Source: Cupriavidus pauculus (GTDB lineage Bacteria > Pseudomonadota > Gammaproteobacteria > Burkholderiales > Burkholderiaceae). Taken from it: a stretch of DNA of 64,000 bases. The notes beneath the pieces are model-generated. The model made no database searches. It saw nothing but the letters and a program-made list of their open reading frames with translations, and was not told where the DNA came from. A program made the position numbers and the translations under genes. The stretch spans positions 496,001-560,000 of the forward strand of contig NZ_CP044067.1 in assembly GCF_008693385.1 (NCBI RefSeq), in the 5' to 3' direction. Of the stretch, positions 5,470 to 15,583 are shown one piece after another. Numbering within the stretch: position 1 is the first letter of the stretch; the number at the start of each line of letters is the position of its first letter.

Positions 5470-6786
5470 GTGGAGACAACCAAGCATGTGGAAACGACCG
5501 GCGCCGCGGCACCCGCGGCACCACCTTCGCAGTGGAACCTCGCCTGGTATCGCGGCCTGAACCTCGAAGGCAGGCGCGCATTCAACGCCGCGTTTGGCGG
5601 CTGGGCCATCGATGCCTTCGATTTCATGGTGTTCAGCTTCGTGATCTCGTCGCTGATCACGGTCTGGGGCATCGATCGCGGCACCGCCGGTCTGCTGGGC
5701 ACCGTCACGCTGCTGTTCTCGTCGATCGGTGGCTGGATTGCCGGCATCCTGGCCGACCGTTACGGCCGCACACGCGTCCTGCAGGGGACCATCCTGTGGT
5801 TTTCCGCCTGCACGGTGGCCATCGGCTTTGCGCAAAGCTTCGAGCAGGTGTTCTTGCTACGCGCGCTGCAGGGCCTCGGCTTCGGCGGCGAGTGGGCCGT
5901 GGGCGCCGTGCTGATCGGCGAGATCATCTCGCCCAAGGATCGCGGCAAGGCCGTCGGCGTGGTGCAGAGCGGATGGGCCGTGGGCTGGGGCCTCGCGGCC
6001 ATCGCCTATAGCATCGCATTCTCGCTGCTGCCGGAGCACCTGGCCTGGCGCTGCCTGTTCTGGGTCGGCGTGCTGCCCGCCTTCCTCGTGCTGTACGTGC
6101 GGCGCCATGTGAAGGAGCCCGAGATCTTCCTGCGCACCAAGGCCGCCGAGCGGACCGCCAACGCGGCCGGCGACGAGACGAAACGTTCGTCGGCATGGGC
6201 GATCTTCTCGCCATCGCTGCTGCGCACGACCATCGTGGCGTCGATCCTCTGCACCGGCATGCAGGGCGGCTACTACGCGATGTCGACATGGCTGCCGACC
6301 TATCTCAAGGTCGAGCGCCATCTGTCGGTGCTGAACACCAGCGGCTACCTGCTCGTCATCATTCTCGGCTCGTTCTGCGGCTATGTCGGCGGGGCCTATC
6401 TCACGGACTTCTGGGGCCGGCGCAAGAACTTCATCGTGTTCTCGGCGCTGTCGGTGGTCAGCATCTACCTGTACCTGCGGCTGCCCCTGACCAATACCCA
6501 GATGCTGTTCCTCGGCTTTCCGCTCGGCTTTTCGGCCTGCGGCGTGTTCAGCGGCGTCGGTGCGTACCTGACCGAGCTCTATCCGTCGGCCAACCGCGCG
6601 AACGGACAGAGCTTCACGTACAACTTCGGCCGTGGCATCGGCGCGCTGTTTCCAAGCCTCGTCGGCATGCTGAGCCAGACCACGAGCCTGGCCACGGCGA
6701 TCGCGATCTTCGCGGGCACCGCCTATGGCGCGGTGCTGCTGATGACGCTGCTGCTGCCGGAGACGAAGGGACAGGCGCTCGAGTAG
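5470..6786 (+). CDS. MFS transporter, organic/aromatic acid:H+ symporter-like
   Basis: This is a 438-residue twelve-helix permease. The GTG at 5470 is preceded by AAGGAG at good spacing. The first helix has GWAIDAFDFMVFSF, whose Asp pattern is typical of acid:proton symporters. Loop 2-3 has DRYGRTRVL and helix 4-5 has GGEWAVGAVLIGE, close to the sialic-acid/aromatic-acid carrier branch. It is third in the aldolase-amidohydrolase set and probably imports the substrate of those enzymes. It ends 48 bp before the convergent nitH stop. Confidence 0.9.
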   Translation: METTKHVETTGAAAPAAPPSQWNLAWYRGLNLEGRRAFNAAFGGWAIDAFDFMVFSFVISSLITVWGIDRGTAGLLGTVTLLFSSIGGWIAGILADRYGRTRVLQGTILWFSACTVAIGFAQSFEQVFLLRALQGLGFGGEWAVGAVLIGEIISPKDRGKAVGVVQSGWAVGWGLAAIAYSIAFSLLPEHLAWRCLFWVGVLPAFLVLYVRRHVKEPEIFLRTKAAERTANAAGDETKRSSAWAIFSPSLLRTTIVASILCTGMQGGYYAMSTWLPTYLKVERHLSVLNTSGYLLVIILGSFCGYVGGAYLTDFWGRRKNFIVFSALSVVSIYLYLRLPLTNTQMLFLGFPLGFSACGVFSGVGAYLTELYPSANRANGQSFTYNFGRGIGALFPSLVGMLSQTTSLATAIAIFAGTAYGAVLLMTLLLPETKGQALE

Positions 6787-6834: not shown

Positions 6835-8106
6835 TCACGCGGCGAGCGCTTCCTCGCCCGCCTGCTCGCGAATGCGGGCCGCGAGGTATTCGGCGTCGCG
6901 GGCGATACCCGAGAAGCGGCCGGAGCCCCAGGTGTGAAGCCACGGCAGGCCCAGGAAGTACAGGCCCGGCACGGGCGTCACGCCGCGTTTGTGGCCCGGG
7001 TACCCCTTGCCGTTGAATACCGGCGCGTCGAGCCAGCCGAAGTCCGGGCGGAAGCCGATGCACCAGACGATCGCGCCGATATTCGCGCGCGACAGGTCCA
7101 GCGCCGTGCGCTCCTCGGCCGGCGTCCATACCGGCTCGTACACCGACGCGGGCGGCGCCTCGATATCGTGCCGGGCGATATGCTTGTCGATGCTGGCATT
7201 GATGCGGTTGTAAGTGGCATCAGCGTCGTCGAGGTTCTCGCGCAGGTTCGGCGCGAACCGCAGCATCCCGTACTGGTAGTCTTCGAGCGCGCCGAACAGC
7301 TCCATGCCCTCGCTCGCGAACCGGCGCAGGTCGATATCGCGGCCGCCGTCGCGACCGGTCACATAATGGTTGGTGTTGTCGCGCACGCCTTCGCGCAGCG
7401 GATGTTCCTCAACGGCCATGTCGTAGTACTGCATGTCCGCGAGCCAGTCCACCACATCGCGCCCACGATAAAAGCGCGCGCAGCGCGGTGCCTGGCCGAC
7501 GGCGAGATAGACCTTGCGCCCCGCCAGATGCAGGTCTTCCGCGATCTGCGCGCCGGACTGTCCCGAGCCCACCACCATCACCGCGCCTTCCGGCAGCGCC
7601 TGCGGGTTGCGGTAGTCGGCCGACTGGATCTGCTTGATGCTCGACGGCAGCCGCTCGGCCATGCGCGGCACGATGGGCGTGTGGTAGCCGCCCGATGCCA
7701 CCACGACCTGGTCGGCCGTGAAGTCGCCACCGCTCGTGCTCACATGGAATCCGCCGCCCTCGCGGCGTGTCACGCGCTGCACGGCCGTATGTTCGCGCAC
7801 GGGCGCGTTCACCATCCGCACGAAGCCGTCCAGGTACTCGACGATCTCGTCGCGCTTCATGAAGCCGTGCGGATCGTTCCCCGAGTACGGATGACCGGGC
7901 AGCGTGCACTGCCAGTTCGGCGTGACGAGGCAGAACGCATCCCAGCGCTGCTCGCGCCACGTATGCGTGACGGTCTTGGCCTCGATGACCAGATGGTCGA
8001 TGCCGGCGCGTTGCAGGCAGTAGCTCATCGACAGACCGGCTTGCCCGCCGCCGACGATGATGACGCTGTAGTGATCGCTATCCTGACTCGGATTCGTTGC
8101 GGACAT
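6835..8106 (-). CDS. nitH: NitH: flavin-dependent oxidoreductase of the Nit1C cluster (MSMEG_0569 family)
   Basis: The 423-residue flavoprotein has an FAD Rossmann motif at the N-terminus (VIIVGGGQAGLS) and a second dinucleotide motif (VVGSGQSGAQ, about residue 178), the layout of class B flavin monooxygenases. The ATG at 8106 is chosen because GGAGGA sits 7 nt upstream; an in-frame ATG at 8121 is part of that site. It is the last gene of the Nit1C operon, starting 25 nt after nitG. Family members occur almost only in this cluster, so oxidation of a nitrogenous intermediate is likely, but no reaction has been read from sequence. Confidence 0.93.
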   Translation of the reverse strand: MSATNPSQDSDHYSVIIVGGGQAGLSMSYCLQRAGIDHLVIEAKTVTHTWREQRWDAFCLVTPNWQCTLPGHPYSGNDPHGFMKRDEIVEYLDGFVRMVNAPVREHTAVQRVTRREGGGFHVSTSGGDFTADQVVVASGGYHTPIVPRMAERLPSSIKQIQSADYRNPQALPEGAVMVVGSGQSGAQIAEDLHLAGRKVYLAVGQAPRCARFYRGRDVVDWLADMQYYDMAVEEHPLREGVRDNTNHYVTGRDGGRDIDLRRFASEGMELFGALEDYQYGMLRFAPNLRENLDDADATYNRINASIDKHIARHDIEAPPASVYEPVWTPAEERTALDLSRANIGAIVWCIGFRPDFGWLDAPVFNGKGYPGHKRGVTPVPGLYFLGLPWLHTWGSGRFSGIARDAEYLAARIREQAGEEALAA

Positions 8107-8131
8107 GTCTCGTCCTCCCATTGATTGTGTG

Positions 8132-8419
8132 TTAGCGGCCGAAGCCAAGGAATCGAACCCTTGCATCGGGCTGCGTGGCATACCGTTCGGCGGTCGCCTC
8201 GATCTGCGCAAGCTGGTCCATGGCCGACGAACATGCATAGCCATAGCGCTGGCGCACGCGCTCGGAGGCGGCGCCCAGCGCGGCACGCGCGCGCGCCAGG
8301 AAATCGTCGAGCGGGTACTCGGCACCGGCTTCGAAATGCGACTCGACGACGGTCGAGGGCGAATAGCACGTGGCCTCGGTCTGGTCGGGCCACGCAATAC
8401 GGAAATAGGTCACTGGCAT
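8132..8419 (-). CDS. nitG: NitG: small Nit1C protein of unknown function (MSMEG_0570 family)
   Basis: This 95-residue protein begins MPVTYFRIAWPDQ and contains a central YSPSTVV and a conserved-looking YPLDDFLARAR. It is hydrophilic, has no signal peptide or metal motif, and has no assigned chemistry. It lies 11 nt downstream of nitF and 25 nt upstream of nitH, so it belongs to the same transcript. Identification rests on position in the cluster and on its match in size and sequence style to the MSMEG_0570 nitrogen-starvation family. Confidence 0.85.
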   Translation of the reverse strand: MPVTYFRIAWPDQTEATCYSPSTVVESHFEAGAEYPLDDFLARARAALGAASERVRQRYGYACSSAMDQLAQIEATAERYATQPDARVRFLGFGR

Positions 8420-8430
8420 AAGAGAATTCC

Positions 8431-9417
8431 TCAGGAAGCGGCCGGCGGCACGATGAATGCGTCGTCGGCAAAATCCCATAGCAGCGAGCGATCGTCGCCC
8501 GCGTCGTGCACGGTCACGCGCGTGCCGTCGTCGATGGTCCCGATGTCCTCGCAGGCCAGTCCGCGCGCGCGGAAGCGTGCCGTCACGGCCTCGACATGCG
8601 AAGGCGAGACGGCCAGCAGAAAGCCGTAGCTCGGGAAGGCGGCCAGCCAGCGCGCCATGTCCACGGCGTCCGGCCGCGGGATGCGCGACAGATCGATGTC
8701 CGCGCCCACGCGCGAACATTCGAGCAGCATCAGCGCGGTGCCGAGCGTGCCGGCCATGCTGATGTCCTTGGCCGCCGCGCACAGACCCGCCTCGGCGATC
8801 TCGGGCAATAGCTCCAGATCGTCGCGCAGGCGCTCGGCCGGCGCGGTCGTGGACGCATTCCAGTACGGGTACGGCTCCTGGAACGCGCCGCGCAGGTCCA
8901 CCGTCATCAGCAGCCGGTCGCCCGGGCGCGCGGCAAAGCTGGACAGCAGCCGCTGCGCGCGGCCGAGGATGGCCACGGCGAGCTGGCCCTGATTGCTGCG
9001 CGCATTGCTGTGGCCGCCGACGATCGGCACGCCATACGCGGCCGACGCCGCCGCCATGCCGGCCAGTACATCCTTCGCGCCGTCGATGGTTTCGCTCCAG
9101 ATCGCATCGACGACGGCGAGCGGACGCCCGCCCATCGCATAGACATCGCTGATATTGACCATGACCGCGCTGTAGCCCGCGAACCATGGCATCGTGCGAA
9201 TGAAATCGCTGACCATGCCTTCGATCGCGAACAGCAGGTAGCCGCCGGCACCGTCGTCGATGGCCGCGCAATCGTCACCGACCGCAACGGCCTGATCGAG
9301 ATCCGTCACGCCACCGGGCAGTGCGCGGCCGAGCGACGAGAGCATGCCCGCGATATCGGCCTTGTGGCCGAATCCGCGGCTCGCGCGCAGCGTGGACACG
9401 ATCTCGGGCACGTTCAT
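8431..9417 (-). CDS. nitF: NitF: AIR synthase-like (PurM fold) protein of Nit1C (sll0787 family)
   Basis: The 328-residue protein has the PurM/ThiL-type ATP-binding elements: VGDDCAAIDD near residue 48, an internal VNISDVYAMGG and IVGGHSN, and a C-terminal AIRS_C-like half. PurM-fold enzymes activate a carbonyl or amide oxygen with ATP, so NitF may phosphorylate an amide-like intermediate. That is an inference from the fold. Its ATG overlaps the nitE stop by 4 nt (ATGA), so the two are translationally coupled; nitG follows after 11 nt. Confidence 0.92.
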   Translation of the reverse strand: MNVPEIVSTLRASRGFGHKADIAGMLSSLGRALPGGVTDLDQAVAVGDDCAAIDDGAGGYLLFAIEGMVSDFIRTMPWFAGYSAVMVNISDVYAMGGRPLAVVDAIWSETIDGAKDVLAGMAAASAAYGVPIVGGHSNARSNQGQLAVAILGRAQRLLSSFAARPGDRLLMTVDLRGAFQEPYPYWNASTTAPAERLRDDLELLPEIAEAGLCAAAKDISMAGTLGTALMLLECSRVGADIDLSRIPRPDAVDMARWLAAFPSYGFLLAVSPSHVEAVTARFRARGLACEDIGTIDDGTRVTVHDAGDDRSLLWDFADDAFIVPPAAS

Positions 9418-9968
9418 GCCGCGCTCCGCCCCGGCGCGGTAAAGCCGACATGCGGCGTGGTACACGGCGGATAATGGCCGAGGTCGGCTTCCATCCGATG
9501 ATGCGGGCGGCCGAGCAGCGTCTCTTCCCCGAGCGATTGCCAGTGCAGGCGGCGGAACAGCGGTTCGTTCTGGCTCTGCACGTGGGCGAGGAAGCGGCGG
9601 CAGCCCAGCGCATGGGCACTGCTGACGGCAAGCCGGATCAGTGTCGCGCCGATCTTGCCGTGATTGCGGTGCGCGGCATCCACGGCAAGGCGCGAGCCCC
9701 ACCAGACGCCCGGTTCGCTTTCGTGGATGCGCACGGTGCCCACCACCACGTCATCCTTGCCCGTCTCGCACTTCACCGCGACCAGCAGTTGCGCCATCTC
9801 GTCGATGTCGTCGCGATCGTCGCTGTCGAAGATGCCCTGCTCCGCGCAGAACACCGCGCGGCGCAGGCGCATCGCCTCGTCCGCCTCCCACGCCGACGTG
9901 GCCCAGCGGATGCGGAAGACGGTTTCCACCGCGGCGACCGGAACCTCCACGCAAAGATCTTCCATCAT
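9414..9968 (-). CDS. nitE: NitE: GNAT N-acetyltransferase of Nit1C (MSMEG_0567/sll0786 family)
   Basis: The 184-residue GNAT protein has the acceptor-side strand VVGTVRIHE and the acetyl-CoA region RNHGKIGATLIRLAV (about 101-115), with a basic AHRNHGKIG pyrophosphate loop. It starts inside the nitD stop (4-nt ATGA overlap) and ends inside the nitF start (4-nt overlap). Tight coupling of radical SAM, acetyltransferase and AIR-synthase-like proteins suggests they act as sequential or complexed enzymes. The acceptor is unknown. Confidence 0.92.
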   Translation of the reverse strand: MMEDLCVEVPVAAVETVFRIRWATSAWEADEAMRLRRAVFCAEQGIFDSDDRDDIDEMAQLLVAVKCETGKDDVVVGTVRIHESEPGVWWGSRLAVDAAHRNHGKIGATLIRLAVSSAHALGCRRFLAHVQSQNEPLFRRLHWQSLGEETLLGRPHHRMEADLGHYPPCTTPHVGFTAPGRSAA

Positions 9969-11086
9969 GCTGCCATCTCCTCGTACGACGAAAGCGACGA
10001 GCAGGCGCCGCACTTGCCACAACCGGCCTTGATATCGGCCGCGCGCATGCCGCCACCGCGCACCATCGCGCCGAGCGGCTCCAGAATCGATCGCATGAAC
10101 TCGGGCGTCGGTGCCGGATGATCTTCCAGCGGCGTGCCGCTGATGGGCACGAACGGCACCACGAACGGGTACACGCCGATCTCGACCAGTTCGCGCGAGA
10201 TATCGAGAATTGCCTCGGCCGTGTCGCCGAGACCGGCGAGGATGTATGTGCTGACCTGACCGCGGCCGAACACCTTCACCGCCGCGCGAAACGCCTCCAT
10301 ATAGCGGCTGATGGGCACCGCGGCCTTGCCGGGCATGATGCGTTCGCGTACAGCGGGCGTGACCACCTCCAGATGCATGCCGAGCGTATCGACGCCGGCC
10401 GCCTTCATGCGGTCGAACCACACGTCGTCGTCGGGCGGCTCGCACTGGGCCTGGATCGGCAGATCCACGGCCGCCTTGATCGCGAATGCGCTCTCGCAGA
10501 GGATCGCGGCGCCGCGATCGGGCGTGGGCGGCGTGCCCGTGGTCAGCACCATATGCTTGACGCCATCGAGCAGCACCGCGGCGCGCGCCACTTCGGCCAG
10601 TTGCTGCGGCGTCTTGCGCGCGATGGTCCGGCCCGCGGCCAGCGACTGGCCGATCGCGCAGAACTTGCAAGTCTTGCGGCGGCTTTCGTAGCGGATGCAG
10701 GTCTGCAGCACCGTGGTCGCCAGCACGTCGGCGCCGTGTAGCGTCGCGATATGCGAGTACGGCACGCCATCGAGCGTCTGCAGGCGCGAGAATCGCGGCG
10801 CCTTCGGAAAACTGATATTGGCGATGGGAATCGTGCCGCGCATCAGCGCGGTCTTGCCGTCGGCATCGGGCGCCGCGGCAAGATACGGCGAGTTCCATGC
10901 GGTGCTCGTATGCACGGGCACCATGATGGTCACGCCGTCGATCGTCACCGCCTTGTGGTCGGACGGCCCCGCCCCGCCGCGCCGGCTCGATGCACCGGCA
11001 CTCGGGTCCACGAGGCGCAGTCCCGACGACTGCAGTTCAGTCATCAACTGCCGGCTCGAGGCAGGCGTCATCTCGCTGATACTCAT
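9965..11086 (-). CDS. nitD: NitD: radical SAM protein of Nit1C (MSMEG_0568 family)
   Basis: The protein has 373 residues from the ATG at 11086, which has GGGAG upstream. The presumed 4Fe-4S motif is C130-x9-C140-x2-C143, followed by [10 protein letters not shown]. This spacing is longer than the classic Cx3Cx2C. A second cysteine group, C356-x2-C359-x2-C362 (CGKCGACSS), lies near the C-terminus and might hold an auxiliary cluster. The TIM-barrel region contains LGMHLEVV and a later ILAGLGDT typical of biotin-synthase-like proteins. The gene overlaps nitC by 50 nt and nitE by 4 nt. The reaction is unknown; context links it to nitrile or cyanide nitrogen metabolism. Confidence 0.92.
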
Positions 11087-12053
11087 GTTGGGCGCTCCCG
11101 TGGAAGTTGGAGAATGCGGCGGACATCGGTGAAGCCGTGGTGGCGGGCCGGTCGTTGATCGCAAGGCTCAGCAGTTCCGGCCGCGCGTAGTGCCCGACCG
11201 AATCCATCATTCGCTTGCGCTTGGTGATCAGCGACATGTCGAGGTCGGCGATCACCATGCCCTCGCCTTCCTTGAGCGGCGCGGCAAGATGCTGCCCCTC
11301 GGGCGAGATGATCGCGGTGTTGCAGCCGCCGCGCAGCGCCTTCTGCAGCGCGGGGTCCGTGGTCACCGAGGCGATCTGCGCATCGGTGAGCCAGCCCGTC
11401 GCGTTCACGACGAAGCAACCCGACTCCAGCGCGTGATGGCGGATGGTCACCTCGATCTGTTCCGCGAAGATCGGGCCGACCAGCGAGCCCGGGAACTGGC
11501 TGCAATGAATCTCTTCGTGCTGCGTCATCAGCGCGTAGCGGGCGAGCGGGTTGTAGTGCTCCCAGCACGCGAGCGCGCCGACGCGGCCGATCGCGGTCTC
11601 CGCGACCTTGAGTCCCGCGGCATCGCCCTGGCCCCAGATCATGCGTTCGTGGAACGTCGGCGTGATCTTGCGGCGCTTGAGCACCAGACGGCCGTCGGTG
11701 TCGAACATCAACTGCGTGTTGTACAGACTGCCGTGATCGCGCTCGTTGACGCCGAGCACGATCACCATGCCATGCCGGCGCGCGCGCTCGGCCATGGCAT
11801 GGGTCACGGGACCGGGCACCACCACGGCCTGCTCGTACAGCCGCATGTGGTCCGCGCCGGACTGCACCGGCGGGCGGACGAACGAGAAATACGGGTAGTA
11901 CGGCACGAACGTCTCCGGAAAGACGATCAGCTGCACCCCCTCGAGCGCCGCGCGGTCGATGGCCTCGCAGACCTTCGCCAGCGTGTTCTCGCCATTCTCG
12001 AGATCGGGCGAGATCTGCACCGCGGCCGCGCGCACTATGCGTTGTCGTGACAT
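11037..12053 (-). CDS. nitC: NitC: Nit1C nitrilase (Nit6803 family)
   Basis: This 338-residue carbon-nitrogen hydrolase has the complete nitrilase catalytic set: E47 in VFPETFVP, K129 in KRRKITPT, E136 in [10 protein letters not shown] and nucleophile C163 in LACWEHYNP. Nitrilases convert R-CN to the acid plus ammonia. Nit6803-type members are the signature enzyme of Nit1C clusters. Length and motifs fit the family. It lies 31 nt after nitB; its end overlaps nitD by 50 nt, with the catalytic part unaffected. The enzyme should be cytoplasmic, with no signal peptide. Confidence 0.95.
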
Positions 12054-12084
12054 GGTGGTTCCTAGTCGTGCGATCGGATCGGTA

Positions 12085-12567
12085 TCAAACGGTCCAGGTG
12101 TCGATGATCACGGCGTTGTCGCGCACGTGCAGCAGCTTCAGGTCCAGCACGTCGAGCGGATTGATCGCACGGATGCCTTCGATCAGCGACGGTTCGCCGT
12201 GGCCATACAGCGCCTGCAGTGCAAAGCGGCACGCGTACACCTTGCCGCCCTCGGCCATGAACTTGGTCAGTTGGTTGTTGAAGTTCAGATGGCCCGGAAA
12301 CGCTTCGTCGCCGAGCGTCGGAAAGCCGCGCTGCACGCCGAGCGTGACGCCCGGGCCATACAGCAGGATGGAGGTCTCGAAACCCTTGCGCTGCAGGCGC
12401 GTGGCCTGAAGCATGTTCACGAAGCCGATCGAGCCTTCGAACGCGACCGTGTGGAACGTGACGAGCGCCTTCTGGCCCGGCTCTGCCTTCACGTCCTCGA
12501 AGACCTTCTCTTCGTAATCGACAAAGTAGTCGCCTTTCTTGTGAAGCGGGGCGCTGACTGCGGGCAT
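12085..12567 (-). CDS. nitB: NitB: first protein of Nit1C (MSMEG_0572/sll0783 family)
   Basis: The 160-residue protein has a DsrE-like hydrophobic core ([30 protein letters not shown]). It contains a single internal cysteine ([11 protein letters not shown]) near residue 110. The ATG at 12567 has AGAGGAG 7-8 nt upstream. It is the promoter-proximal gene, downstream of the sigma-54 promoter at 12641-12655 with a leader of about 60 nt. Family function is unproven; the DsrE resemblance suggests a small-molecule or sulfur-carrier binding role. Confidence 0.9.
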
Positions 12568-12640
12568 GGTGCTCTCCTCTGATGGGTGGCGGATTAGGTC
12601 GGATAACGATCGGCTAGCGGTGCCGACGCCATGCCATTTC

Positions 12641-12655
12641 GCAACGCGCGTGCCA
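12641..12655 (-). promoter_or_regulatory. Sigma-54 (RpoN) promoter of nitBCDEFGH
   Basis: On the minus strand the sequence is TGGCACGCGCGTTGC, matching the sigma-54 consensus TGGCACG-N4-TTGC at all eleven fixed positions, with the GG and GC exactly 10 nt apart. Transcription should begin near 12629, giving a leader of about 60 nt before nitB. Sigma-54 control suits a nitrogen-scavenging cluster. It requires an enhancer-binding ATPase such as NtrC, and none is encoded in this window. Confidence 0.8.
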
Positions 12656-12671
12656 TCTTCGGGTCCCGGAC

Positions 12672-12951
12672 ATGCGATCAAGAGCCGATCTTCCGCATCG
12701 CGCGGGATTGATCGCATCGGTGATTTTTCATGTGGCGGAATGGTGCCGACATGGTCCATACATCCCGGCACAAAACGGCCCGAAACCCGCGCGCACCAAC
12801 GTGGACGCGGTGCGCAGGGACAGGGCATGCCGGACGCCGCGCGCAGCACGCGCGCACCATCATCGAGCCGATAAAGATGCGATCAATCGGCTTTGATCGG
12901 CCGATCGCTTGCGATAAATGCAGGCACGAAACCTGCACGCCCCGATCGCAT
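12672..12951. promoter_or_regulatory. Repeated putative operators between nitB and mocR
   Basis: The 406-bp gap 12568-12973 contains no gene. It holds ATGCGATCA at 12672-12680 and 12877-12885, its reverse complement at 12709-12717, and a one-mismatch reverse copy at 12943-12951. The copies at 12706-12718 and 12876-12888 extend to a 13-bp perfect inverted pair (GATTGATCGCATC/GATGCGATCAATC). A 12-bp palindrome, GATCGGCCGATC, lies at 12895-12906. MocR regulators bind repeated sites near their own and the target promoter, so these are the best candidates. The binding itself is inference. Confidence 0.55.
12791..12815. repeat. Inverted repeat in nit regulatory region
   Basis: Seven-bp arms GCGCACC and GGTGCGC flank 11 bp. 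The centre lies about 175 bp upstream of the predicted sigma-54 start site, a usual distance for an enhancer. The spacing is wider than the NtrC consensus, so the binding protein is unknown. Confidence 0.35.
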
Positions 12952-12973
12952 TCATCCTGTTGCGGAGTGCATC

Positions 12974-14374
12974 GTGTCGAGTCTTGCCAATCACTGGCTC
13001 AAGCGTCTGGCGGAGAGCGAAAAGCCCGCCTATCTGATGATCCCGGACATGATCGAAGAGGATCTGGCCAGCGGTCGTCTGCGCGCGCGGGACCGGCTGC
13101 CCGCGCTGCGTGACCTGGCCGACGCGCTGCGGCTCAACTACACGACGGTGGCGCGCGGGTATGCCGAAGCGCGCAAGCGCGGGCTGATCGATGCCAAGGC
13201 CGGCAGCGGTACCTTCGTGCGCGGACGCGCGCCCGCGCTGCCGTTGCAGGCCGGCACGGGCGCGGAGATGAGCATGAACATGCCGCCCGAGCCGGCCAGC
13301 ATGACCGTGCGCCTGCGCGAGGCGGCGGCGCGCATTCTCGGCGACGCCGATCCGTATACATTGCTCCGTTATCAGGACTTTGGCGGCACGCCCGCCGATC
13401 GGTCGATCGCGACGGCATGGCTGCGGCAGCGGCTGCCCGACTGCCGGCCGGACACGGTGCTGATCTGCCCGGGCATCCACAGCGCGCTGGTGGCGCTGGT
13501 TTCGCAACTCGCGCGTCCGGGACAGACCATCTGCCTCGATACGCTGGCCTATCCGGGCATCAAGGCCATTGCCGCGCAACTGGGCGTGCAGTTGCAGGCG
13601 CTGCCCTCGGACGAGGAAGGCCCGCTCGGCCCCGCATTCGAGGCACTGTGCCGCACGCAGCTGCCCAGCGCGTTCTATATCAATCCGACGCTGCAGAACC
13701 CGAGCACGCGCACGATGCCGCAGGGGCGGCGCGAGATCCTCGCCGATATCGCGCTGCGCTACAACGTGCCGATCATCGAGGACGATGCCTACGGCATGCT
13801 GCCGCGCGAGGCGCCGGACCCGATGGCGCGGCTCGCGCCCGAACTCACGTACTACGTCACGGGGATGTCGAAGACGTTCGGCGCGGGGCTGCGTATCGCG
13901 TTCCTGTCGGCGCCCACGCCGCGGCAGGCACAGCGGCTCGCGGGCACGCTGCGCGCGACGACGGTCATGGCCAGCCCGTTCAATACGCTGCTGACCACCT
14001 CATGGATTCAGGACGGAACGGCTTCGGACATGATCGCGGCGATTCGCGCGGAAAGCGTCGCGCGCCAGGCCGTGGCGCGCGATGTCCTGACGGCCGGGGC
14101 CGGGCATGCCTACGATGCGGACCCCGAAGGCTTCCACCTGTGGCTGCCGATTCCGGCGGCATCGGGCTGGCGCCCGTCGGAACTCGCCCTGCACCTGCGC
14201 TCGCGCGGCATCGGCGTGGTGTCGAGCGCGGCATTCTCCACGGACGGCAATCCGCCCGATGCGGTGCGTATCTGCCTCGGCGGTCCGAACGATCTCGAGG
14301 AAATGGAGGAGTGTCTGCAGATCGTCGTCGATACGCTCGACGATCCGCATCATCTCCATACGGCGATGCTGTAA
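12974..14374 (+). CDS. MocR-type (GntR-HTH plus aminotransferase) transcriptional regulator
   Basis: The 466-residue protein starts at GTG 12974 with GGAG 6 nt upstream; a longer frame from 12893 would use TTG without a site. Residues about 20-90 form a GntR winged helix (LPALRDLADALRLNYTTVAR, then RGLIDAKAGSGTFV). The rest is a fold-type I aminotransferase with INPTLQNPS, IIEDDAYG and the PLP lysine K300 in GMSKTFGAG. MocR proteins sense PLP-linked amino compounds and regulate neighbouring genes. Divergence from Nit1C and the repeats in the shared region make this cluster the likely target. The gene converges on the serA-like gene with 6 bp between stops. Confidence 0.93.
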   Translation: MSSLANHWLKRLAESEKPAYLMIPDMIEEDLASGRLRARDRLPALRDLADALRLNYTTVARGYAEARKRGLIDAKAGSGTFVRGRAPALPLQAGTGAEMSMNMPPEPASMTVRLREAAARILGDADPYTLLRYQDFGGTPADRSIATAWLRQRLPDCRPDTVLICPGIHSALVALVSQLARPGQTICLDTLAYPGIKAIAAQLGVQLQALPSDEEGPLGPAFEALCRTQLPSAFYINPTLQNPSTRTMPQGRREILADIALRYNVPIIEDDAYGMLPREAPDPMARLAPELTYYVTGMSKTFGAGLRIAFLSAPTPRQAQRLAGTLRATTVMASPFNTLLTTSWIQDGTASDMIAAIRAESVARQAVARDVLTAGAGHAYDADPEGFHLWLPIPAASGWRPSELALHLRSRGIGVVSSAAFSTDGNPPDAVRICLGGPNDLEEMEECLQIVVDTLDDPHHLHTAML

Positions 14375-14380
14375 AACCGC

Positions 14381-15583
14381 TCAGGCCACGATCGTCCGCG
14401 TGCGGATGACCGTGGGATCCTCCATCAGCGACTTTACCCATCCCGTCGGCGGCACGATATTGATATCGGTGATCGCATAGCCGATATCGCCTTCGGTCTG
14501 CAACTGCTGCGCGACGATATTGGCGCCGATATCGGCCACCGCCTGGTTGAAGTGCGATAGCGCGCCCGGGCGGTTGTAATGGATGTTCAGGATGCGCGCC
14601 GGCGCCTGCAACGGCGCGGGCTGGATCTGCGGCAGGTTCACCGCGCCGACCGTGGCACCCGTCTGCAGGAAACCGATGAGCTTGGTCGCCACCTCCACGC
14701 CGATATTCTCCTGCGCCTCTTCCGTGCTGCCGCCGACGTGCGGCGTCAGGATGACGTTCGGCTTGTCCTGCAGCGGCGACACGAACGCATCGGCATTGCT
14801 GCGCGGCTCTTCCGGAAACACGTCGATGGCCGCGCCGCCGATATGGCCTTCGTCCAGCGCGGCGGCCAGCGCCTCGATATCGACCACCGAACCGCGCGAC
14901 GCATTGATCAGGATGCTGCCGCGGCGCATGCCCGCGATGGCCGCGCGGTCGATCAGCAGCTTCGTCTGCGGCGTGGCCGGGACGTGCAGCGTCACGACGT
15001 CCGCCTGCGCGAGCGCGTCGGCCAGCGACGGCGCGGGCACGGCCGAGCCCAGCGACAAACGCGGACGGATGTCGTAGAACACGACGCGCATACCCATGGC
15101 TTCCGCCAGAATGCCCACCTGGGCGCCGATATTGCCGTAACCGATCACCGCGAGCGTCTTGCCGCGGATCTCGAACGAGCCCTTGGCGCTCTTCTGCCAT
15201 TCGCCACGGTGGGCGGCACGACTCTTCTCGGGAATCCGGCGCATCAGCATGATGGTCTGTCCGATCACGAGTTCCGCCACCGAGCGCGTGTTCGAGAACG
15301 GCGCGTTGAACACGGGGATGCCCGCATGCGCGGCGGCCGGCAGATCGACCTGCGACGTGCCGATGCAGAAACAGCCGACCGACAGCAGATGGCGCGCATG
15401 GGCGAACGTATCGGCGGTCAGGTGCGTCGCCGAGCGGATGCCCAGCAGCTCGTGCCGCTGCAGGGCGTCATGGAGCGCGTCGCCGGCCAGCGCCTTGGGC
15501 TGGGTGGCAACGGTGAGCTGGGCTTGTGCCAGCGCTTGTTGCGCGCTGGCATGGATGTTTTCGAGAAGCAGGGCGCTGGTCAT
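14381..15583 (-). CDS. serA: D-3-phosphoglycerate dehydrogenase-like 2-hydroxyacid dehydrogenase
   Basis: The 400-residue protein has a NAD-binding domain (VIGYGNIGAQVGILAE), substrate Arg in NASRGSVVD, catalytic Glu in FPEEPRS and His in ILTPHVGGSTEEAQ. A C-terminal ACT domain follows (about 330-400), ending in NIVPPTGWVKS-type sequence. It matches the short E. coli-type SerA (about 410 aa) that oxidises 3-phosphoglycerate in serine synthesis and is often inhibited by serine through ACT. A second chromosomal copy may exist elsewhere. It shares no operon with its neighbours. Confidence 0.88.
   Translation of the reverse strand: MTSALLLENIHASAQQALAQAQLTVATQPKALAGDALHDALQRHELLGIRSATHLTADTFAHARHLLSVGCFCIGTSQVDLPAAAHAGIPVFNAPFSNTRSVAELVIGQTIMLMRRIPEKSRAAHRGEWQKSAKGSFEIRGKTLAVIGYGNIGAQVGILAEAMGMRVVFYDIRPRLSLGSAVPAPSLADALAQADVVTLHVPATPQTKLLIDRAAIAGMRRGSILINASRGSVVDIEALAAALDEGHIGGAAIDVFPEEPRSNADAFVSPLQDKPNVILTPHVGGSTEEAQENIGVEVATKLIGFLQTGATVGAVNLPQIQPAPLQAPARILNIHYNRPGALSHFNQAVADIGANIVAQQLQTEGDIGYAITDINIVPPTGWVKSLMEDPTVIRTRTIVA

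Follow-up and report, generated by a model that had tools for sequence, protein, structure and literature searches.

A divergent MocR protein as the probable dedicated regulator of the Nit1C cluster, with predicted sites at a fixed distance from a sigma-54-like promoter

The Nit1C gene cluster has been reported as needed for growth of Pseudomonas pseudoalcaligenes on cyanide, and its chemistry is unsolved. Excerpts of the Pseudomonas literature describe NitA as its regulator (PMC11049912, PMC6368324). What part, then, does a MocR-type regulator play when it stands beside the cluster in Cupriavidus pauculus? The locus lies at 6835..14374, from the nitH stop to the end of mocR, in a stretch of 64,000 nucleotides (the window) that corresponds to G000:C3:496001-560000 of a 7.06-Mb genome in three contigs (G and L numbers denote genomes and loci throughout). 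As the initial annotation held, the cluster is complete and ordered: the seven Nit1C parts run from 12567 to 6835 on the minus strand, and in an NCBIfam scan of the listed open reading frames each exceeds its curated cut-off. The MocR gene, at 12974..14374 on the plus strand, indeed adjoins nitB and diverges from it, and its product has the GntR and aminotransferase domains of the family. We think it likely, at roughly three chances in four, that this MocR is a dedicated, co-inherited regulator of nit1C, which would act through sites beside a sigma-54-type nitB promoter, rely on an activator supplied in trans and read its signal through a domain that binds pyridoxal 5'-phosphate (PLP).

The pairing extends well beyond this genome. 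In 80/80 named loci, nitB has a relative of the window MocR upstream of it on the opposite strand (phmmer 305 to 1034 bits). These are the best 80 of 521 loci ranked by NitB similarity, a choice that biases the set; they span Burkholderiales, Enterobacterales, Halomonas, Marinobacter, Methylobacterium, Vibrio and others. The gene is cut by a contig end in L056 and is in two pieces in L069, and it stands 727 to 4,459 bp from nitB in five of the loci (L015, L028, L029, L032 and L040). Paraburkholderia xenovorans LB400 (L076), a laboratory strain, also carries nit1C with MocR. Random draws from the class (369 genomes) and the phylum (398 genomes) yielded, in addition to the window's genome, 17 in which NitB exceeds the cut-off. 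Of these, 15 have a divergent upstream MocR; the remaining two have a PAS sigma-54 activator of NitA type (L171) and, on a short contig, a GGDEF-EAL protein (L157). Within Cupriavidus, NitB is present in 23/60 genomes and a nit-type MocR (at least 63% identity and at least 415 bits, with the best 27 candidates or fewer scored per genome) in 22/60, every one a NitB genome; none of the 37 Cupriavidus genomes without NitB has one. In the sole NitB genome of the genus that lacks it, G040, the contig stops 506 bp upstream of nitB. The distance matrices of MocR and NitC are correlated (r 0.91, 114 loci, permutation p 0.001). The counts include five pairs that seem to be one record twice (L010/L132, L011/L121, L034/L117, L036/L118 and L081/L126) and both L064 and L069, which are one strain; L125, L157 and L171 (no MocR on the stretch) and L179 (co-directional MocR) were left out beforehand.

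MocR beside nitB is thus the common state in the sampled Pseudomonadota. The neighbourhood comparison (80/80 named loci and 15/17 draw genomes) and the co-occurrence in 22 of the 23 NitB-bearing Cupriavidus show that the adjacency is not chance, and we reject the view of it as an accident or an oddity. The idea in the initial annotation that MocR is an exception which replaces the usual sigma-54 system has to be given up: MocR is the commonest neighbour in the sample, NitA adjoins nitB in one of the 17 draw genomes, and the nitB promoter is itself sigma-54-like, as described below. It is also very improbable that MocR is a historical hitch-hiker without a role in nit1C. Such a history would accommodate the five genomes that keep a similar MocR without NitB and the Acetobacter nitB that adjoins a MocR of another branch, but it sits poorly with the co-occurrence over 60 Cupriavidus genomes, where one contig end is the sole gap, and with the predicted sites that the loci have in common at the nitB promoter.

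These sites lie in the gap between nitB and mocR, which measures 406 bp in the window. We compared this gap with 111 others, each shorter than 600 bp; five gaps longer than 600 bp were left out of the statistics. The 10-mers ATGCAATCAA and ATGCGATCAA occur in 52/112 and 57/112 gaps, as against 0 and 1.0 in shuffles, and words of the form ATGCRATCAA are likewise far more frequent than in shuffles. A position matrix derived from the same 112 gaps resolves two groups of ATTGATYGCAT sites, in which neighbours most often follow one another at a step of 11 bp; because the matrix was made from those gaps, its match in 112/112 of them is not used as evidence. The strict pattern TTGATYGCAT is found in 85/112 gaps versus 0/870 control windows, which were coding-rich, matched the gaps in length and came from the named loci, downstream of nitB. 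There are 44 such words in the 7.06 Mb of G000, three of them inside the nitB-mocR gap. The predicted sites of the window are CTTGATCGCAT at 12672..12682 on the minus strand, ATTGATCGCAT at 12707..12717 on the plus strand, in the opposite orientation, and ATTGATCGCAT again at 12877..12887 on the minus strand, in the group on the mocR side.

A second line of evidence ties the sites to the protein. The core pattern leaves the base following TTGA free, and this base is T in 191/202 core sites where the DNA-reading helix of MocR has Tyr (88 loci). Where the helix has Phe (22 loci, 60 sites), it is T in 13, C in 28 and A in 19; two loci were unassigned. Four Oxalobacteraceae loci (L042, L056, L057 and L077), members of the Burkholderiales, fall in the Phe group and have C or A; the site base therefore follows the MocR branch, not the species. 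At least two core sites are present in 10/15 random-draw loci. Of the three loci that lack MocR, L177 alone has a matrix match, a weak one (11.4), with none in L171 or L157; a core match is found in none of the three. We infer that MocR would bind the ATTGATYGCAT sites.

Could the repeats belong instead to another DNA-bending protein such as IHF, with MocR binding elsewhere or simply regulating itself? The IHF consensus is WATCAANNNNTTR, the ATCAA of the repeats is common to it, and IHF usually binds between the enhancer and the -24 element. Yet the conserved half of the repeats is ATGC-R rather than the TTR side, neighbouring repeats mostly step by 11 bp, one site base tracks a residue of the MocR helix, and the three loci without MocR lack the core match. 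Taken together, these points make an assignment to IHF improbable.

What lies next to the sites on the nitB side is a sigma-54-like -24/-12 element, TGGCACGCGCGTTGC, at 12641..12655 on the minus strand, 88 bp before the nitB ATG. The consensus of sigma-54 promoters, TGGYAY-N5-YTGC, is matched on the nitB strand in 97/112 gaps (0.8 expected) and on the other strand in 1/112 (0.8 expected), and the stricter TGGCAY-N5-TTGC is matched in 92/112 (0.1 expected). The element is present in 14/15 random-draw loci; a sigma-70 promoter scan of the window gap found none. It lies within 140 bp of nitB in 101/117 divergent loci, and in 78/101 of these a predicted MocR site stands exactly 27 bp before the -24 element, as CTTGATCGCAT does in the window. 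A site stands at 38 bp in 54/101, and any other distance from 12 to 74 occurs in at most 8 loci; the spacer itself is little conserved. A regular-expression count that makes no use of the matrix agrees: of 92 pairs under 60 bp, 56 are at 27 and 22 at 38. Even with mocR more than 600 bp from nitB, site and element remain beside nitB in 4/5 loci.

Such fixed spacing suggests a direct action of MocR on the sigma-54 polymerase or on the bend in its DNA. An alternative, to which we give a chance not far below even, is that MocR simply represses nitB and its own gene until a PLP adduct releases it, and that the fixed distance just marks the position from which the sigma-54 polymerase or its loop is best blocked. 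The proximal predicted sites abut the promoter, as a block would have it, and excerpts of PMC8567248 give an inferred negative role to the P. pseudoalcaligenes MocR on the cio cluster. What such a block would not obviously need is the exact register of 27 and 38 bp.

The scheme that we favour builds on the gene set, the adjacency, the common sites, the promoter element, the fixed spacing and the helix-to-base covariation, all read directly from the sequences; binding, the ligand and the part of NtrC are what these features would imply. MocR would bind the repeated ATTGATYGCAT in two groups, one just upstream of the sigma-54 nitB promoter and one near its own start. This promoter would depend on RNA polymerase with sigma-54 and on an AAA+ activator supplied from another locus, for which NtrC, responding to nitrogen limitation, is the likeliest candidate. 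G000 encodes NtrC (688.9 bits, cut-off 558.6), and NtrC-like palindromes (at most two mismatches) occur in 78/112 gaps versus 22 expected; of the 114 that were mapped, 87 are 120 to 220 bp upstream of the -24 element. Nitrogen limitation acting through NtrC would then open the nitB promoter, and MocR would add pathway-specific control by gating it through a PLP adduct, whose other component could be cyanide itself or an amino compound, for example 3-cyanoalanine. The sign of this action could be that of a repressor, a co-activator or both. ArgR at astC offers a precedent, as a specific regulator that works in addition to NtrC and sigma-54. We propose 3-cyanoalanine as a ligand because it has the same carbon chain as diaminobutyrate, with a nitrile replacing the amine, and EnuR, a MocR protein named again below, responds to ligands of the diaminobutyrate type.

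A number of observations weigh against this reading. First, the loci are related, not independent, and the five genomes mentioned above have a similarly scoring MocR and carry no NitB. Second, the covariation may reflect as little as one or two Tyr/Phe changes on the MocR tree; of the 22 Phe loci, L039 and L043 have T only and L168 and L176 have no core site, and of the 15 random-draw loci, L162 and L168 have none. Third, 15/112 gaps lack the sigma-54 pattern, seven of these rows (five distinct genomes) being Cupriavidus; a near match that ends in RTGC occurs in nine of the 15. Fourth, the 27-bp distance is not universal: the best distance is 26 in five loci, and it is 49, 61, 64 or 73 in Methylobacterium and in several loci drawn from beyond the window's class. 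Fifth, the composite of site and promoter element has one match in G000, at nitB, and 36 over the 60 Cupriavidus genomes, 17 of them at nitB; the reversed pattern, run as a control, has 23 matches, close to the other 19, so that the single G000 match is weak evidence alone. Finally, the window's own NtrC-like palindrome is weak, as is the tree support for a nit MocR group, whose FastTree node has no support value and whose next node has 0.117.

The protein itself is consistent with an amino compound or a PLP adduct as signal. By homology we take its start as the GTG at 12974 (the longest frame begins at 12893), and its GntR winged-helix and aminotransferase class I/II domains (PF00392 and PF00155) are the make-up of the MocR family. 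The AlphaFold2 model, of mean predicted local distance difference test (pLDDT) score 91.7, resembles aminotransferases such as LysN, as well as GabR (4n0b) and PdxR (7zn5). These two regulators share the domain make-up and the fold of both domains with the window MocR, and differ from it in sequence (about 18-19% identity) and in a whole-chain root mean square deviation of at least 15 Å; their domains are therefore placed differently from those in the model. N242, D271, K300, R307 and R432 are invariant in 34 MocR proteins, and Y273 is kept in at least 90%. By analogy with fold-type-I enzymes, we assume that these residues serve as the PLP lysine, the pocket and the C-terminal arginine for a carboxylate. 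The residues for PLP and an amino-acid carboxylate thus appear intact, PLP and DNA binding are predicted, and the earlier suggestion of an amino compound or PLP adduct is therefore a sound guess.

The best-scoring named family is EhuR/EnuR (NF052286), at 376.6 bits against a cut-off of 480. We reject this identity: the score is under the cut-off, the window MocR stands on a separate branch with no ectoine genes adjoining, and two true EhuR loci (L278 and L279) score 206 and 200 bits against it. In a FastTree tree of 142 MocR proteins, 52/53 nit MocR used form one group, which also takes in four proteins whose genomes lack NitB (L266 to L269); the Acetobacter L179 MocR is placed elsewhere. An IQ-TREE analysis of 62 MocR proteins gives ultrafast bootstrap values of 75 for nit MocR plus L270, 100 after adding L271 and one L215 protein, 36 with the cio-type added, 91 for the nit, cio and cyo branches together, and 99 for five EnuR representatives.

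What these relatives adjoin bears on the question of cyanide as the signal. Among 13 non-EnuR loci inspected (the neighbourhoods of L267 and L269 were not printed), bd-oxidase genes adjoin MocR in two, L274 and L276, and in L272 a gene for subunit II lies near it, which makes 3/13. In L215, serC, argD and a cysK piece stand beside MocR, recalling the P. pseudoalcaligenes cio cluster. With the references used, L266, L268, L270, L271, L273, L275 and L277 have no bd-oxidase or PLP-enzyme neighbour. The second-closest Cupriavidus MocR diverges from cyoAB in 20/20 loci fetched of 40 listed (L210, L216-L234), with cioAB on its far side in two; L280, of the same cyo branch, shows no cyo gene. In L215 (404-7371) and L235, serC, argD and a cysK fragment are flanked by two MocR genes, and a cyoB-like gene, recognised by eye, adjoins them, as do the spare PLP enzymes in the P. 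pseudoalcaligenes cio cluster recall.

An alternative that we regard as plausible but distinctly short of even is a signal unrelated to cyanide, such as a nitrogen-rich amino acid under nitrogen shortage, with Nit1C serving another nitrile or an amine. NCBIfam calls several Nit1C families nitrogen-starvation proteins, and the nitB promoter is of the type used in nitrogen control. Related MocR proteins away from nit adjoin bd-oxidase genes (L272, L274 and L276) or spare PLP enzymes (L215), which speaks for cyanide, an argument limited by the seven other such loci without these neighbours. Moreover, according to excerpts of PMC5333837, a cyanide-containing residue induces the NitB to NitH proteins in P. 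pseudoalcaligenes. Tentatively, and with some doubt, one may go further and suppose that one MocR branch is a cyanide-sensing family, set over nit1C, bd-oxidase (cio) and cyo oxidase genes, that reads cyanide through a PLP reaction or a cyano-amino acid and works at nit1C in fixed helical register with the sigma-54 promoter.

MocR in cyanide responses and NitA for nit1C are already in print; MocR at nit1C was not met in the literature searched. Our searches on Nit1C, MocR and sigma-54 returned no report of MocR at Nit1C or of a MocR shown at a sigma-54 promoter, and the words "nitrilase" and "cyanide" are absent from the main text of Suvorova and Rodionov 2016 (PMC5320631), its supplementary regulon tables apart. 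For a rhizopine MocR promoter, excerpts of PMC10107442 consider rpoN plausible, with no clear consensus found. As the excerpts of PMC11049912 and PMC6368324 have it, nit1C of P. pseudoalcaligenes CECT5344 has the same seven genes and a divergent upstream regulator, but that regulator, NitA, is a Fis-family sigma-54 activator; at E 1e-90 we find no NitA relative in G000 and one partial match in the 60 Cupriavidus genomes. The first description of Nit1C (PMC1199592, in part), from few genomes, has the gene set and order of the window and reported no conservation outside Nit1C and no conserved upstream factor-binding sites, in contrast to the conserved neighbour and upstream sites that our larger sample reveals. 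Two MocR proteins of cyanide responses can be compared by their published descriptions, again in excerpt. MpaR of P. aeruginosa (PMC10790758) is a PLP-type MocR in a cyanide response, as is proposed for the window MocR; full expression of its target requires cyanide, and its PLP lysine is important. It differs in controlling ccoN4 and neighbours, and its published motif is ATCTGAT. BN5_1899 of the P. pseudoalcaligenes cio cluster (PMC8567248) regulates cyanide-linked genes including the nitrilase Nit4, and is tied to cio and nit4, not to nit1C.

If most Pseudomonadota pair Nit1C with a MocR at a sigma-54 promoter, the MocR ligand would offer a handle on a pathway intermediate, and the fixed spacing would provide a simple test of how a MocR can act on the sigma-54 polymerase. 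The predicted sites could also serve as a regulon search tool, having already pointed to a porin-like gene in two methylotrophs. In these (L015, 8357-9690, and L032, 8127-9513), a similar gene with its own MocR-type site and sigma-54 element lies between mocR and nitB and is likely a regulon member; the L032 product partly matches Pfam Porin_O_P, and that of L015 has no Pfam match. In L029 (5821-9480), a nitE-like GNAT gene and a methylmalonyl-CoA mutase gene stand between mocR and nitB, with a site and sigma-54 element preceding the first of the two.

Among plasmid records, an Agrobacterium record has a divergent MocR beside nitB, the Acetobacter record (L179) has its MocR of another branch beside nitB in the same direction, and on the Acinetobacter soli plasmid (L177) Nit1C is accompanied by a fragmented gene for a NitA-type activator, with a cydB gene and a MocR from another branch some 8 kb away. 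Outside the Pseudomonadota the sample is one Rhodococcus plasmid (L175), whose Nit1C locus has no MocR and has a LysR gene upstream. Of the 515 plasmid records with a NitB match, 374 are from Klebsiella. Two Klebsiella plasmids were opened: in L281 the Nit1C set is complete and has a PLP-type neighbour diverging from it, and in L178 the frames of these genes are broken.

The cluster itself begins with nitB (12085..12567; MSMEG_0572/Sll0783 family, TIGR04044, 281.7 bits, cut-off 109.85), whose product is identical to NitB of Cupriavidus pampae and C. plantarum. Among solved structures, the best sequence matches of NitB (E 0.017, a designed repeat protein) and NitG (E 0.37) are not usable. A NitB model of low confidence (mean pLDDT 68.4) matches 3mc3 (Foldseek E 8.9e-5) and 1jx7, which predicts a DsrE/YchN-like fold; Cys113, invariant across 25 NitB proteins and conserved even in Rhodococcus, is a residue with which a sulfur-carrier role would fit. 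The other six genes, also on the minus strand, are nitC, a Nit6803-family nitrilase (11037..12053; TIGR04048, 586.3 bits, cut-off 502.6; solved relative 3wuy); nitD, a radical SAM protein (9965..11086, starting at 11086 or 11044; TIGR04043, 598.5 bits, cut-off 303.7; also NF045502, variant_rSAM); nitE, a GNAT acetyltransferase (9414..9968, starting at 9968 or 9965; TIGR04045, 244.2 bits, cut-off 68.45); nitF, an AIR-synthase-like protein (8431..9417; TIGR04049, 475.6 bits, cut-off 321.3); nitG, of unknown function (8132..8419; TIGR04042, 125.3 bits, cut-off 79.85); and nitH, a flavin-dependent oxidoreductase (6835..8106; TIGR04046, 703.3 bits, cut-off 498.35). A second nitrilase near the Nit6803 family (G000:C3:2291295-2291981; L002, L212) scores 374 bits, under the cut-off, and by eye has no Nit1C-like neighbours. 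The window locus is flanked by genes for a major facilitator superfamily transporter (5470-6786) and a SerA-like dehydrogenase (14381-15583); among 38 regions checked in the genus and the draws, both flanking genes occur solely in L132, a very close Cupriavidus.

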